From a virus: 64,000 bases of DNA. Below, one piece after another: positions 11,013 to 33,715 of the stretch. Numbering within the stretch: the first letter of the stretch is position 1; every line of letters starts with the position of its first letter. The notes under the pieces were generated by a model. That model was not told the DNA's origin, searched no databases, and was given only the letters and a program-made list of their open reading frames with translations. Position numbers and translations under genes: made by a program. Location of the stretch: positions 1-64,000 of the IMG/VR virus record IMGVR_UViG_3300017917_004426; one strand, written 5' to 3'.

Positions 11013-11018
11013 TAAATA
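11013..11018 (+). promoter_or_regulatory. Late-promoter-like TAAATA box
   Basis: TAAATA, seven bases, then ATG 11026. Predicted +1 at 11024 (2-base leader); no Shine-Dalgarno. Confidence 0.55.
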
Positions 11019-23966: not shown

Positions 23967-23995
23967 TTGACCAATAAATCCTGATCTGCTACAAT
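23967..23995 (+). promoter_or_regulatory. Sigma70-type promoter TTGACC-N17-TACAAT
   Basis: -35 TTGACC (23967-23972), 17-base spacer, -10 TACAAT (23990-23995). The expected +1 at about 24002 is one base before ATG 24003, and no Shine-Dalgarno is present. Divergent from the late box of gp14. Confidence 0.75.
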
Positions 23996-24002
23996 TGGCA
24001 TT

Positions 24003-24281
24003 ATGAAAGTGGTAAAACTCAATCGCAGATTCAAACAATTTAGGGAAAACGGGCACACCGTTGCCCTGCGTTTTCCCTACTACACCCCCGACGTTGACAG
24101 GGTAGAGAACATAGTTAAACAACGACTGGGTGGCGCAGGCTACGATCGCCAAGCAGATTGGTGCAGTTATTTTGGTGCCGCAAACGGGCACTCAGACCGT
24201 AAAACTTTTTGGATCACATTCCGCAGGGAGTCTGATCTTACTTTAGTATTACTTTCTGCCAACTTGACCAAAAATTCCTGA
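24003..24281 (+). CDS. Small basic early protein, unknown function
   Basis: 92 residues beginning MKVVKLNRRFKQFRENG, rich in Arg/Lys, then TVALRFPYYTPDVDRVENIV and ADWCSYFGAANGHSD. No known family recognised. A host-type promoter directly in front implies expression early in infection, and the start appears leaderless. Small basic early proteins of phages often target host machinery, but nothing in this sequence proves that. The stop codon lies within the spacer of the next promoter. Confidence 0.65.
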   Translation: MKVVKLNRRFKQFRENGHTVALRFPYYTPDVDRVENIVKQRLGGAGYDRQADWCSYFGAANGHSDRKTFWITFRRESDLTLVLLSANLTKNS

Positions 24282-24292
24282 CGTGCTATAAT
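24264..24292 (+). promoter_or_regulatory. Sigma70-type promoter TTGACC-N17-TATAAT
   Basis: -35 TTGACC (24264-24269), 17-base spacer, perfect -10 TATAAT (24287-24292); expected +1 near 24299 gives a 21-base leader with AGGAG before ATG 24320. Spacer sequence resembles that of the promoter at 23967 (both contain an ATTCCTGA/AATCCTGAT-like stretch), suggesting duplication. Confidence 0.85.
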
Positions 24293-24319
24293 ACACACTT
24301 GTTCACTACAGGAGTCTGT

Positions 24320-24607
24320 ATGAAAAAGGCAGCAAATTTTGTTGCAAAGTACTCTACTGCCAACAAGTCTAAGGCTGTTCTGCCCTATGACAGAATAAAA
24401 GCCACAGAAAAATGGCTGGAGTACAGTCTGGACATTGTTGACATGAATAAAATTTTAATGACGTCAGACTTTAACACCAAATGGCAGTTAATGGAGGCTT
24501 TAGACATTGCAGAGCGCAAACGCAAATACATGTATAATCACAAAAACTTTAACCTCAAACGTGCCATGCAATTGTTTGAATTGTGCAAAGATTTACCTGT
24601 AAAATAA
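24320..24607 (+). CDS. Small early protein, unknown function
   Basis: 95 residues from ATG 24320, chosen for its AGGAG Shine-Dalgarno seven bases upstream and because an in-frame TTG at 24299 would sit on +1. Lys-rich, helical (IKATEKWLEYSLDIVDMNKI; WQLMEALDIAERKRKYMYNH), no membrane segment or cysteine motif. Not recognised. Cotranscribed with the next gene, 12 bases downstream. Confidence 0.65.
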   Translation: MKKAANFVAKYSTANKSKAVLPYDRIKATEKWLEYSLDIVDMNKILMTSDFNTKWQLMEALDIAERKRKYMYNHKNFNLKRAMQLFELCKDLPVK

Positions 24608-24619
24608 GTAAGGACACAC

Positions 24620-25753
24620 ATGAGCACCACATTTAAAATCAAACTGTTGAACCCCCGCAGTTCTGACACCAACATTCTGGGCCTGGAGCCAACCTGGCAC
24701 ATTCAGCCCACTGAGTACCGTGCTAGTAGGTTGAGCAAAGCATTTTCTTGGTACAACTATTTCTACGGCAAAAAAGATGCCCGGGACATGATTGTGAACT
24801 ATTTGGAAGCACATGATCGCAGGGCAGATGTGCGACTGCTCAAAGGCATTCCAGATTCAGCAATTCGTTTAACCACAGGTTGGCTGTGCCGCATGACCAT
24901 GGTGGGCTTGGAACTTTCTGATGCTGAACAGGTAAAACTGCAAAGGCAACTGAGAGAAATACTGGACAGCAAGCAGACTGAAGTCACAGAAGTTGTAGAA
25001 GAGCCTGTGACAAACAAGCCCAACATCCAGGATCGACTGCGTGAAAAAGCGTCAGAGTGCAATGGCGAACTGGACGGCATGTTTGACGAGTTCATGTTGA
25101 GCGGCGCCAAAATGACTGCGGACTTCAAACCTGTCACAATCATGCGTGGATTGAATGTAGCACCGCAAATGATCAGCCAAATTGCTGACAACTGGAAACG
25201 CAAACTCTCAGAGTTTGAAGCAGTAGCGGAAGGCAAGGACCCGCAACTGGTGGAAGCATACAGCCATCTTTCCAAAATACAACTGCGGAATGTTGTGAAG
25301 TTTTGCGAAGCAGTGGTAAATGACTGTGGTGCTTATGTGCAGATCAAGAAAGTGGAACGCAAGCCACGCAAAGTCAAGGCAGTACCACCAGAGAAACGTG
25401 CGGCCAAGTTCAAGATTCTCACAGAATTTGCTGAACTCAAACTCAAGAGCCAGCCCGCCGCAAGCCTTGTGGACAAAGCAGAAGCATGGTTGTATGACAG
25501 CAAAAAACGCAAACTGATCCACTTGGTTGCTGACAGCCATACACAGTCTTTCACAGTAAAAAATAACTCAATCATTGGATTTTCAACTGTGGAAACAGTG
25601 CAAAAAACTCTGCGCAAGCCAGCAGAACAACTCAAAGGCATCATAGGTGCAGGCAAGCCAGCCGCTCGCAAAGCATTCAAAGATATCAAAGCCACAGAAA
25701 CTGCTTGGAATGCTCGTGGCACAGAGAACTTGATCATCCTCAAGAGTTGGTAA
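24620..25753 (+). CDS. Conserved phage protein of unknown function
   Basis: 377 residues. The first half (FSWYNYFYGKKDARDMIVNY, RLTTGWLCRM) is helical. Residues about 230-377 are basic (KKVERKPRKVKAVPPEKRAA) followed by a beta-type region: AEAWLYDSKKRKLIHLVA, FTVKNNSIIGFSTVETVQ, KTLRKPAEQLK. The WLYDSKKRKL.........V......I.GF......KTLRKP pattern recurs in phage hypothetical proteins as I recall; no function is known. The stop codon TAA forms the start of the TAAATA box of the gp13 gene. Confidence 0.65.
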   Translation: MSTTFKIKLLNPRSSDTNILGLEPTWHIQPTEYRASRLSKAFSWYNYFYGKKDARDMIVNYLEAHDRRADVRLLKGIPDSAIRLTTGWLCRMTMVGLELSDAEQVKLQRQLREILDSKQTEVTEVVEEPVTNKPNIQDRLREKASECNGELDGMFDEFMLSGAKMTADFKPVTIMRGLNVAPQMISQIADNWKRKLSEFEAVAEGKDPQLVEAYSHLSKIQLRNVVKFCEAVVNDCGAYVQIKKVERKPRKVKAVPPEKRAAKFKILTEFAELKLKSQPAASLVDKAEAWLYDSKKRKLIHLVADSHTQSFTVKNNSIIGFSTVETVQKTLRKPAEQLKGIIGAGKPAARKAFKDIKATETAWNARGTENLIILKSW

Positions 25754-25756
25754 ATA
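25751..25756 (+). promoter_or_regulatory. Late-promoter-like TAAATA box containing a stop codon
   Basis: The TAA of the upstream gene is the first half of TAAATA. Predicted +1 is 25762, inside the 5' arm of the hairpin that pairs with the gp13 start region. Confidence 0.6.
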
Positions 25757-25776
25757 TAGGGACACGGAGTCCCTAT
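25756..25776 (+). promoter_or_regulatory. Hairpin covering the gp13 start codon
   Basis: ATAGGGAC, loop ACGGA, GTCCCTAT: an 8-bp stem whose 3' arm contains the first two bases of ATG 25775. RNA starting upstream can form it; RNA starting at the late box (+1 about 25762) would lack six of the eight 5'-arm bases. Confidence 0.6.
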
Positions 25777-26542
25777 GGCAGAACAGCAAGACACACTATC
25801 TCAGCTCAAGCAAAATCTCATCGAGTATGTACAGCTTCAACTGGGCAGTCAAATCATTGACTTGGAATTGGATCCAGCACACTACGAAGCCGCATATACC
25901 AAAACAATTGGCACTTACCGCCAACGAGCACAAAACGCCTACGAGGAAAGTTATAGTTTTTTCACCTTAGTAAAAGATGAAAACATCTACACACTGCCCC
26001 AAGAGGTGGTAAGTGTGCGCCAGTGTTTTCGCAGAACTTTTGGCGATGCCACTGGTCCTTATGCGTCAAACTTTGATCCGTTTGCTCAAGCAAGTTTGAA
26101 CGTTTATTTGATGAACTTCAACGTGGCTGGCGGTCTTGCTACCTACGACTTTTACAGCCAGTATGTTGAATTGGCCGGCAGAATGTTTGGTGCCTATTTC
26201 AACTACACATTCAACCCTGTGACCAAAAAATTACAGTTGATTCGTGATCCTAAAAACACCGGCGAGGCTGTGCTGATTTGGACTTACAATTTGAAACCCG
26301 AAATCAACTTGTTAAGCGATTTTCAAATTTCCCAATGGATTCGAGATTACATGGTTGCCAACTGCAAAATGATAATCGGTGAAGCACGTGAAAAGTTTGG
26401 CACCATTGCTGGACCACAAGGTGGCGGCACCCTAAACGGCACTGCCATGAAAGCAGAAGCCAAAACAGCCATGGACGAACTGATTGGTCAATTGGTCAAC
26501 TATGTGGATGCCAGCCAACCCTTGACCTGGGTAATTGGTTAA
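25775..26542 (+). CDS. gp13: Neck protein gp13-like
   Basis: 255 residues (T4 gp13 is 309). The opening LSQLKQNLIEYVQLQLGSQI followed by IDLELDPAHYEAAYTKTIGT matches the gp13 start, where a helical opening with LGS precedes the D-x-x-(H/Q)-x-x-x-A repeat. It is followed by NIYTLPQEVVSVRQCF and a C-terminal helix with MVANCKMIIGEARE. With gp14 it closes the filled head and accepts the tail. Start codon and possible Shine-Dalgarno (CGGAG) lie in a hairpin; see the separate entry. Stop overlaps the next start (TAATG). Confidence 0.82.
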   Translation: MAEQQDTLSQLKQNLIEYVQLQLGSQIIDLELDPAHYEAAYTKTIGTYRQRAQNAYEESYSFFTLVKDENIYTLPQEVVSVRQCFRRTFGDATGPYASNFDPFAQASLNVYLMNFNVAGGLATYDFYSQYVELAGRMFGAYFNYTFNPVTKKLQLIRDPKNTGEAVLIWTYNLKPEINLLSDFQISQWIRDYMVANCKMIIGEAREKFGTIAGPQGGGTLNGTAMKAEAKTAMDELIGQLVNYVDASQPLTWVIG

Positions 26543-30279: not shown

Positions 30280-30285
30280 TATTTA
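30280..30285 (-). promoter_or_regulatory. Late-promoter-like TAAATA box
   Basis: Minus-strand TAAATA, five bases, ATG 30274; predicted +1 is the A of the ATG. No Shine-Dalgarno. Confidence 0.55.
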
Positions 30286-30340
30286 GCGCCTGGACCTTTG
30301 ACAAAGGTATTCAAAACGGCTGTTTTTTTCAAGGTCTCAA

Positions 30341-30346
30341 TAAATA
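30341..30346 (+). promoter_or_regulatory. Late-promoter-like TAAATA box for the sheath gene
   Basis: TAAATA 25 bases before ATG 30371; the predicted leader of about 19 bases carries AAAAGGA as Shine-Dalgarno. Confidence 0.65.
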
Positions 30347-30370
30347 TTAGAACTTGAAAAGGATTCAACC

Positions 30371-33300
30371 ATGGCTCTCACATCACCCGGCGTACAAGTA
30401 ACAGTAATTGACGAAAGTCAATATATTCCATCAGCAGTCAATACAGTACCATACTTTTTGATTGCCACAGCGCAGAACAAAGTTTCTGGCACTGGCGTTG
30501 GAGTAGCAGCTGGTACTACAGCGGCTAACGCTAACAAAACATATTTAATCACCAGTCAGCGTGATTTAACAGCCACTTTTGGTGTGCCATTCTTCTATAA
30601 CACAACTACTGGTACTCCAATTAATGGTTACGAACTCAACGAATATGGCTTGTTGGCTGCTTACAGCTCATTGGGCATTTCCAATCGCGCTTATGTTCAG
30701 CGTGTGGACATTGACTTGACCGAACTCACAGCCAGTTTGACCCGTCCAACTGGAACGCCTGTTGATGGTGCTTATTGGTTAGATACTTCAACTTCTGTTT
30801 GGGGCATTCAAGAATGGAACCAAGAAACTGGTACATTTGAAGTTATGACACCAATGGTGATTACAAGCGCAGCAGATGTTGTGGTTAGCACCAGTGGAAT
30901 TACAGGTTTGCCAATTTACACTCCATTGAACACAGTGGGCAGTATTGGTGATTATGCAGTAGTAGCATATGCCGATGCTGGCGATGATGCACATAATGTT
31001 TGCTGGTATAAGAATTCGGCAAATGTCTGGGTGGCAGTTGGCAGTGCAGAATGGCAAGTGTCATATCCTACAATTCAAGGTTCAGTGGTTAATCCCACAC
31101 TCACAGCAGGACAAAGTATTTTTATCAATGGAACATCTGTTGCTGTGCCTGCTTCGCCATCTAATACTTTGGCAGGTTTTGTTGCTGCTATCAATTCAGC
31201 AACCATTGCAGGTGTGACAGCGGCGGCTGTAGGTGGTAAGTTTACTATCTATGCTGACGATACAGCAACCAATGATGGTAGTACCGCCAATGGTGGTATT
31301 GTGAGCATTCAACCCAATGCTAGCGGTTCTGCATTGTGTACTGCTCTTGGTATTTCTGCCATTGAGTATCTAACACCCATATACTTCCCAGGTTACAGTT
31401 ATCAAGCACCACGCTGGAGAACCACCGATACCACACCAAGACCAACTGGATCTGTATGGAACAATTTGAGTCCTGCAAACAATGGATTAAATTTGATTTT
31501 GAAAAAATACAGTGCAACATTGGGCGAATGGGTAGCACAGTCAGTGCCAGCATATCAAAACACAAACTATGCTCTGAACGCATTAGACCCTACTGGTGGT
31601 GGAAAAAATATTCCTGTGGGAACCACATGGTGCCAATATAATGCCAACTTCAATGAAACTACTCCTTTGAATTCCATGGGATTTGAAATTTATGAACAAG
31701 TGGTGTTTGGTCAGACCATCATTGCAGGAACAACCACACCAGGACAGAATGCCGATCCGTTGTTCACAGCAGGAAATCGTTTTATACTTTATGGTTCGGC
31801 TGCTGGATCGAATACTGGTAATTACGCCACAGTTATATTGACTGGTACTAGCATTGCCAGTTTCATCGCCGATGTTAGCGCAGCCAATGTACCTTATGTG
31901 TCGGCTAGTGTAAACAGCGCCGGAAACATTGTGTTTACTCACACTCAAGGTGGATCAATTGGATTACAAAATGTTATTGGTACTCCAGCTGCAACCGCCG
32001 GTTTTACAACTGCTACTCCATATTGCAGACAGAGTGTAACAAATCAAAATATTTTGTTTTTAAGCAATTTCTGCGGTGTGCCTGAGTTCAATTACACTGC
32101 TTCAAGCACAGCACCTTATCAAGATCCTGCTGATGGCAGACTGTGGTACTACTCAACACCAAGCCAAGTTGACATCATGATTCAAAACAATGGATCTTGG
32201 CAAGGATATCAAAACGTCAGCAATGATGTTCGTGGATATGATCTCACACAAACCAATCCTTCTGGACCAATCTGTGCTGCCACAGCACCAACATTGCAAA
32301 CCGATGGTATTACAGATTTACAATTGGGTGATTTGTGGGTGGACACTAGTGATTTGGAAAATTATCCAAAACTGTATCGTTGGTCACAGGTAGATGCCAT
32401 TCAACAATGGGTGGCGGTAGATACCACTGACCAAGTCACACAGAATGGTGTGTTGTTTGCTGACGCACGTTGGGCACCAAATGGCACAACAGATCCTGTT
32501 GCTGATCCAATTCCAACTATTGTGAGTTTGTTGACCAGCAACTATCTCGATTTGGATGCTCCAGATCCAGCACTATATCCACAAGGTATGTTGTTATGGA
32601 ACACACGTCGTTCGGGCTACAATGTTAAGAGTTATCAAAGCGATTACTTTAATGCTACTTCATTCCCTGATCAAGCACTGCCGCCGGTGACCAGCACTTG
32701 GCTCACAGCATCAGGCAACAAACAAGACGGCAGCATGTACGCAGGTCGCTTGGCACAACGTCAGATGGTTGTGGCTGCAATGAAGTCAGGCTTGGATACC
32801 AGTTTAGGCGCTAGAGAAGATACAGCACAGTTTACACTGATTGCAACACCTGCATACCCTGAACTGATTCCTAACATGATTGCACTCAGCAACGAGCGCA
32901 ACAACACCTTGTTTGTGGTTGGTGATACTCCAATGCGCTTGCCAGCCAATGGTACTGATATTACAGCATGGGCTACTAACAATGGCGGCGTTGGCTTACC
33001 AGCAGGCGATGGTCAATCAAGCACCAGCAACTATGCTGCCACATTCTATCCAAGTTGTACAACCACAGACTTGAGTGGCAATACTGTGGTAACAGCACCA
33101 AGTCACATGATGGTTAGAACCATAATCCGCAGTGACGAAGTAAGTTATCCATGGTTGGCACCAGCAGGCACACGCCGCGGTGTGGTAGACAATGCCACAC
33201 AAATTGGCTATATTGATGGCGCTACCGGCGAGTTCCAGCCAATTGGTGTGAACCAGGGCCTGCGTGATGTGTTGTATGCTTTGAACGTGAACCCAATCAC

Positions 33301-33688
33301 ATTCATTCCAGGTATCGGTATTACCAACTTTGGTAACAAAACAAGCACCACAACTACCACAGCATTGGATCGCATCAACGTTGCACGACTGGTTGCATTC
33401 TTGCGTGGACGCTTGGAAGAAATTGGTAAATTGTATCTGTTTGAACCTAACGATCAGATCACACGCAATGAAATCACCAACACCTGCAACAGTTTGATGG
33501 TTGACTTGATTGCTAAACGTGCTATCTATGACTACTTGGTTGTTTGCGACTTGAGCAATAACACACCGGCTCGTATTGACCGCAATGAATTGTGGGTTGA
33601 TATTGCTATTGAACCAGTCAAGGCTGTGGAGTTTATCTACATTCCTCTGCGTATCAAGAACACTGGAGACATAGCAGCAGGACTGTAA
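30371..33688 (+). CDS. gp18: Tail sheath protein gp18
   Basis: 1,105 residues; T4 gp18 has 659, so about 450 residues are extra. The N-terminus ALTSPGVQVTVIDESQYIPS is the sheath opening. The C-terminus (ALDRINVARLVAFLRGRLEE, LFEPNDQITRNEITNTCNSL, DLSNNTPARIDRNELWVDIA, EPVKAVEFIYIPLRI) is the conserved polymerising domain. The extra material lies between about residues 130 and 690 as Gly/Thr/Asn-rich beta domains, expected on the sheath exterior. It contracts to drive the tube through the envelope. Strong Shine-Dalgarno, own promoter and terminator. Confidence 0.93.
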   Translation: MALTSPGVQVTVIDESQYIPSAVNTVPYFLIATAQNKVSGTGVGVAAGTTAANANKTYLITSQRDLTATFGVPFFYNTTTGTPINGYELNEYGLLAAYSSLGISNRAYVQRVDIDLTELTASLTRPTGTPVDGAYWLDTSTSVWGIQEWNQETGTFEVMTPMVITSAADVVVSTSGITGLPIYTPLNTVGSIGDYAVVAYADAGDDAHNVCWYKNSANVWVAVGSAEWQVSYPTIQGSVVNPTLTAGQSIFINGTSVAVPASPSNTLAGFVAAINSATIAGVTAAAVGGKFTIYADDTATNDGSTANGGIVSIQPNASGSALCTALGISAIEYLTPIYFPGYSYQAPRWRTTDTTPRPTGSVWNNLSPANNGLNLILKKYSATLGEWVAQSVPAYQNTNYALNALDPTGGGKNIPVGTTWCQYNANFNETTPLNSMGFEIYEQVVFGQTIIAGTTTPGQNADPLFTAGNRFILYGSAAGSNTGNYATVILTGTSIASFIADVSAANVPYVSASVNSAGNIVFTHTQGGSIGLQNVIGTPAATAGFTTATPYCRQSVTNQNILFLSNFCGVPEFNYTASSTAPYQDPADGRLWYYSTPSQVDIMIQNNGSWQGYQNVSNDVRGYDLTQTNPSGPICAATAPTLQTDGITDLQLGDLWVDTSDLENYPKLYRWSQVDAIQQWVAVDTTDQVTQNGVLFADARWAPNGTTDPVADPIPTIVSLLTSNYLDLDAPDPALYPQGMLLWNTRRSGYNVKSYQSDYFNATSFPDQALPPVTSTWLTASGNKQDGSMYAGRLAQRQMVVAAMKSGLDTSLGAREDTAQFTLIATPAYPELIPNMIALSNERNNTLFVVGDTPMRLPANGTDITAWATNNGGVGLPAGDGQSSTSNYAATFYPSCTTTDLSGNTVVTAPSHMMVRTIIRSDEVSYPWLAPAGTRRGVVDNATQIGYIDGATGEFQPIGVNQGLRDVLYALNVNPITFIPGIGITNFGNKTSTTTTTALDRINVARLVAFLRGRLEEIGKLYLFEPNDQITRNEITNTCNSLMVDLIAKRAIYDYLVVCDLSNNTPARIDRNELWVDIAIEPVKAVEFIYIPLRIKNTGDIAAGL

Positions 33689-33689
33689 A

Positions 33690-33715
33690 AATAGGGTCCG
33701 AGGACCCTATTTTTT
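33690..33715 (+). terminator. Rho-independent terminator after the sheath gene
   Basis: AATAGGGT / ACCCTATT stem around CCGAGG, followed by six T residues, starting one base after the sheath stop. Confidence 0.88.

Follow-up and report, generated by a model that had tools for sequence, protein, structure and literature searches.

A conserved hairpin built around a T4-type late promoter probably silences the gp13-type neck gene of jumbo phage relatives until late infection

In bacteriophage T4, the lysozyme gene e is present on a long upstream RNA that forms an inhibitory stem and on a late RNA that lacks the 5' part of this stem (PMC3014915). In the T4 genes soc and 49, the Shine-Dalgarno (SD) sequence, the AUG or both are paired in a helix when the RNA is a long transcript from upstream (PMC3014915, PMC2988022). 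In T4 I-TevI, I-TevII, I-TevIII and segB, and in Aeh1 mobE, a late promoter leaves the late RNA without the hairpin-forming sequence (PMC2988022). The principle is thus already known from T4 e, soc, 49 and I-TevI and from Aeh1 mobE (PMC3014915, PMC2988022). For the jumbo phage CBB, the consulted passages of the published account describe an ATAAATA late motif upstream of structural genes together with a gp55-like sigma factor, and contain no mention of hairpins around that motif (PMC5259590). No earlier description of such an element at a neck gene was found in the literature searched, which left most subscription journals outside. Here we describe a hairpin at the start of a neck protein gene that we consider likely to act as a one-way gate on translation, assembled around a late promoter.

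The gene lies in the window, by which we mean the whole 64,000-nt stretch of viral DNA analysed; it is part of a 64.6-kb virus record, a fragment without a sigma gene of its own. The open reading frame at 25775-26542 (plus strand) encodes a gp13-type neck protein or head-tail adaptor Ad2 (PHROG 211, E 8e-26) and aligns by tblastn with the annotated 'neck protein' of jumbo phages, in agreement with the identity proposed by the sequence-only reading. Judged by this protein, the cultured relatives are jumbo phages, with ~34-43% identity. A co-directional gene of 377 amino acids (PHROG 11903; 24620-25753, plus strand) precedes it, and its stop codon at 25751-25753 is followed after 2 nt by the hairpin's 5' arm and after ~21 nt by the gp13 ATG.

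The junction between the two genes, 25751-25777, reads TAAATATAGGGACACGGAGTCCCTATG on the plus strand. TAAATA, a T4-type late promoter element, occupies 25751-25756, directly upstream of the ribosome site and 24 nt from the ATG, and the upstream gene ends with its TAA. The 5' arm ATAGGGAC (25756-25763), which holds the predicted late +1, pairs perfectly over 8 bp with the 3' arm GTCCCTAT (25769-25776) around the loop ACGGA (25764-25768). Because the ATG is located at 25775-25777, its A and T fall within the stem. Of the SD-like GGAG (25766-25769), three bases belong to the loop and one to the closing pair, a detail absent from the sequence-only reading, and this placement of the SD in the loop rather than in the stem counts against a gate. 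The isolated hairpin has a predicted energy of -11.0 kcal/mol (z -4.1), equalled by none of the dinucleotide shuffles, and the 8-bp stem that had been proposed over the gp13 start region is thereby confirmed. A 151-nt stretch folded whole is uninformative (z -0.7). Perfect hairpins of at least 8 bp number 20 in the window vs 10.2 +/- 3.3 in shuffles. Since such hairpins are enriched about twofold and are not rare, the hairpin alone is weak evidence, and the window-wide count was rejected as proof. The weight of the evidence lies in the position of the hairpin and in the homologues, not in the hairpin itself.

The start of the late RNA was approached through the TAAATA-to-ATG distances over ~0.84 Mb, comprising the window and eight related contigs. 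The distances fall into two classes, 10-13 and ~22-31, with nearly nothing in the gap, a pattern absent from fourteen permuted hexamers over the same ~0.84 Mb. An SD is found in 0 of 81 genes of the 10-13 class vs 59 of 80 of the ~22-31 class. The sharp lower edge at a distance of 10 suggests that transcription begins ~10 nt after the T of TAAATA, which corresponds to 25761. At T4 late promoters, +1 is at T+11. From the distance edge and the T4 geometry we infer a late +1 at about 25761-25762, so that the predicted late RNA would keep 2-3 of the 8 nucleotides in the 5' arm and lose 5-6. The distance edge thus gives independent support to the +1 at 25762 that the sequence-only reading predicted from TAAATA, and the loss of six arm bases that accompanied it becomes five or six.

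Genes of the shorter class, whose ATG follows TAAATA by 10-13 nt, lack an SD, and their late mRNAs would consequently be leaderless. There are 81 of them in the window and the eight related contigs, including those with TAAATA at 11013, 16151, 36346, 45813, 50427 and 60070 on the plus strand of the window and at 30280, 23953 and 3900 on its minus strand; RaK2 and CBB have almost none of this class.

The calculated cost of opening the gp13 ribosome site in the window is 15.5 kcal/mol on upstream RNA vs 2.7-3.0 kcal/mol on late RNA, with shuffles at 5.7-6.7 kcal/mol. The identical calculation for T4 gene e, used as a positive control, yields 14.3-16.8 vs 1.6-4.5 kcal/mol, and these like energies support the earlier suggestion that the locus follows the gene e principle. 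Five related contigs encode a gp55-type late sigma (PHROG 12791), as do all of the six cultured jumbo phages that were searched for it.

A comparison of homologous leaders reveals that the two arms have evolved together. The 80 IMG/VR loci kept and the window represent 49 distinct gp13 leaders; TAAATA is found in 49 of 49, and GGAG is retained in most homologues. In a swap test on the 43 distinct SD-type leaders with enough flank, each 5' part was folded against each leader. The opening cost was 10.28 kcal/mol with the leaders' own arms vs 7.98 kcal/mol (sd 0.31) when permuted, and none of 20,000 permutations was as high; with one leader per cluster, the values were 9.66 vs 6.98 (sd 0.49). Among 16 window-type stems, three pairs are changed on both sides, and the covariation score is higher than in any of 500 shuffles or any slid version. 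These stems were picked as window-type, which biases them toward pairing, a bias that the swap test does not have. The -11 kcal/mol fold, the covariation and the swap test together predict that the SD and/or AUG lie in a stable helix on upstream-derived RNA. Because relatives keep the pairing with changed letters, the hairpin probably silences gp13 until late infection.

The stems of the loci L043, L053 and L064 are unrelated and 10-13 bp long; their 5' arm is positioned at or ahead of TAAATA, and their 3' arm contains the SD. Their 5' arms are beyond the reach of RNA begun at their TAAATA, and only in these loci is loss of the 5' arm from late RNA certain. Counting against the gate, the hairpin is weak or absent despite TAAATA in L002, L024, L032, L040 and others. 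In the gp13 homologues L012, L021 and L065, the ATG instead follows TAAATA by 11-13 nt, and these genes would be leaderless. The sequence-only reading had named homologues that keep gene and promoter and lose the arms as evidence against its proposal; this pattern holds for a minority. Among the arm-less leaders with an identifiable upstream gene, nearly all have a gene between gp13 and the early-type operon.

The same arrangement is found in 13 cultured jumbo phages (RaK2, Muenster, 121Q, Munch, fENko-Kae01, Hallingskeid, GAP32, CBB, XbC2, SNUABM_19, Kaldavass, BF and XaC1), in which a long stem covers the SD and has TAAATA within or next to its 5' arm. These stems are longer than that of the window, with opening costs of 17-25 vs 3-8 kcal/mol (p 0.005-0.010 each) and covariation counts above all shuffles and slides. 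In both RaK2 and CBB, gp13 has the top z among all leadered late genes. The stem is followed by 5-8 U in GAP32, CBB, BF, XaC1 and 121Q, and the U-run stems of several cultured phages may also terminate upstream RNA. In the more distant relatives, no gate was found in Atu_ph07 and Phosso, and at most a weak one in PA5oct and Vibrio 2.275. In RaK2, the neck protein ORF038 (L090 941-953) probably starts 12 nt downstream of its annotated start, at the SD-led ATG at 953, which is the start in Muenster's annotation.

A further gene, located behind IF3 and ClpS-like genes and annotated as structural in CBB, also has a predicted gate in RaK2 and CBB. At RaK2 139479 and CBB 231666 (L199, L201), CTCCAAGG../..CCTTGGAG and CTCCAAAG../..CTTTGGAG surround TAAATA with a U-run after, which, judging from the sequence, is the same device with compensatory change. 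Another CBB gene with a predicted gate is a virion protein gene in the terminal repeat.

The gate can be related to the transcription units that surround it. In the window, the operon at 24003-25753 leads into gp13. Two early-type promoter sites of the sigma70 type are found on the plus strand 1.5-1.8 kb upstream of the gene, both with TG before the -10: TTGACC-17-TATAAT at 24264-24292 (11 of 12 matches) and TTGACC-17-TACAAT at 23967-23995 (10 of 12 matches). No terminator was found in the window between this operon and gp13. A sigma70-type site is located ahead of the 380-aa upstream gene in 20 of 20 distinct loci with flank, and none of the distinct loci with this gene has an upstream TAAATA gene start. 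The late gene next after the 380-aa gene is gp13 with a closed leader in 20 distinct cases (opening 8.4-18.6 kcal/mol), an inserted leaderless gene in 19, and, in L023, an inserted gene that itself has a hairpin (opening 10.7 kcal/mol). The early-operon junction is therefore gated or leaderless in 40 of 40 distinct readable cases; the remaining loci have an inserted gene without TAAATA or without a clear start. The median opening cost of gp13 is 7.3 where the adjacent upstream gene differs vs 13.2 kcal/mol behind the 380-aa gene (Mann-Whitney p 4e-5, with loci counted regardless of shared ancestry). Over all late genes of nine contigs, gating correlates weakly with the nearest upstream promoter, with few early cases, and the tie of gating to the upstream promoter holds clearly only at the gp13 junction. 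The 380-aa gene/gp13 junction is also an insertion spot for varied genes (L002, L024, L027, L034), among them, as judged by eye, radical-SAM-like and SGNH-hydrolase-like genes; the entering gene usually brings its own TAAATA.

That every leadered late gene is gated was considered and rejected, as in the window's clade p<=0.05 was obtained in 24% of these genes vs 4% of control genes and the median z is near 0. Some individual leaders of the window have related features. A strong predicted gate is located at 5480-5530, with the start at 5530 (1586 aa) and opening costs of 14.1 vs 2.1 kcal/mol (z 3.8). In the tail-sheath leader (30325-30371), TTTTCAAG before TAAATA (30341) can pair with CTTGAAAAGG over the SD; the stem TTTTCAAG/CTTGAAAA around this TAAATA is strong in three close genomes only, and not in others. 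A terminator-like 12-bp hairpin, AAAAATAGGGTCC/GGACCCTATTTTT, lies at 33687-33714 between the tail sheath and tail tube genes.

In the mechanism that we propose, early RNA from the sigma70-type promoters would cross the 377-aa gene into gp13, and on this read-through RNA the hairpin would keep the gp13 start region closed. Once the gp55-type late sigma takes over, RNA would begin at 25761-25762, inside the 5' arm; such late RNA could not form the stem, and GACACGGAGUCCCUAUG would become accessible to ribosomes. A start closed on upstream RNA and open on late RNA, as the sequence-only reading had it, is supported computationally by arm co-evolution and replacement stems, by the gp55-type sigma and by early-type promoters without a terminator. 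The read-through RNA and the size of the repression stay predicted quantities of this scheme.

The main rival is translational coupling, in which the ribosome that ends the upstream gene at 25751-25753 melts the 5' arm and gp13 is translated by reinitiation. On read-through RNA, gp13 would then be translated if and only if the upstream gene is, and the hairpin would link the two genes without silencing. The upstream stop is close enough to the 5' arm, and to the ATG ~21 nt away, that ribosomes ending there could melt the arm, and tight spacing is common among homologues. Coupling, however, needs no late promoter within the stem. The U-run after the stem in several cultured relatives would be a barrier to upstream RNA, and the gate is weaker where the upstream gene belongs to a late unit. 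We regard coupling as the unlikely explanation of the two.

The hairpin could also be mainly a transcription terminator or RNA-processing site of the upstream operon, with its overlap of the gp13 start incidental. Although the stem and 5-8 U of GAP32, CBB, BF, XaC1 and 121Q have this appearance, there is no U-run after the stem in the window, in most close homologues or in RaK2, and the conserved part is the pairing with the SD/AUG; we consider this reading highly improbable. An intrinsic terminator in the window was itself rejected, the stem there being followed by GGCAGAAC and no U-run. Marginally less probable still is that the inverted repeat serves as a DNA operator through which a repressor or activator acts on the late promoter, or is due to chance. 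The repeat does overlap about -6 to +2 of the promoter, and similar-sized hairpins are not uncommon in the window, but in relatives its sequence is replaced and the position of the stem on the DNA changes with SD/AUG pairing preserved, and arm co-evolution holds at cluster level. The unrelated stems with kept geometry provide the strongest argument for a role at the RNA level and against a DNA operator.

Returning to the one-way gate, we put forward, tentatively and with rather more doubt than for gp13 itself, a rule for T4-like jumbo phages: a late gene directly behind an early operon would be shielded from expression by upstream RNA, either by a hairpin or by a late mRNA that is both leaderless and SD-less, and unrelated stems would have arisen repeatedly at the same gene. 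The hairpin of this rule would be one that is destroyed by the late start and is sometimes fused to a terminator. The data suggest that promoter-in-hairpin timing, so far known for a few T4 genes, is also a conserved way of controlling a core virion gene in giant phages, where the stem has been rebuilt repeatedly and the gate thereby kept despite large divergence. This offers a testable reason why structural genes can adjoin early genes without a terminator, and RaK2, 121Q, CBB, GAP32 and BF are cultured phages in which it can be tested.

Compared with T4 e, the locus is alike in having a T4-type late promoter beside the ribosome site and similar opening energies in the same calculation. The sequences are unrelated, and the T4 gene functions in lysis whereas a neck protein is encoded here. 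The stem of T4 e contains the SD, whereas the present stem contains the start codon and leaves most of the SD to the loop. The T4 e system has been tested experimentally, whereas the present gate is predicted from sequence and computation. I-TevI, I-TevII, I-TevIII, segB and mobE share the placement of the late promoter and are embedded behind early or middle genes, but are homing endonuclease genes, by contrast with the conserved virion gene described here. The likeness to soc, which encodes a capsid protein, and to 49 is that of late genes with the SD and/or AUG paired on RNA from upstream; soc and 49 were compared through reviews. CBB, a relative, has the same late motif upstream of structural genes and a gp55-like sigma. 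What appears to be new relative to these systems is the gene, the phage group, the depth of conservation, the repeated rebuilding of the stem and the tie to an early-late junction.
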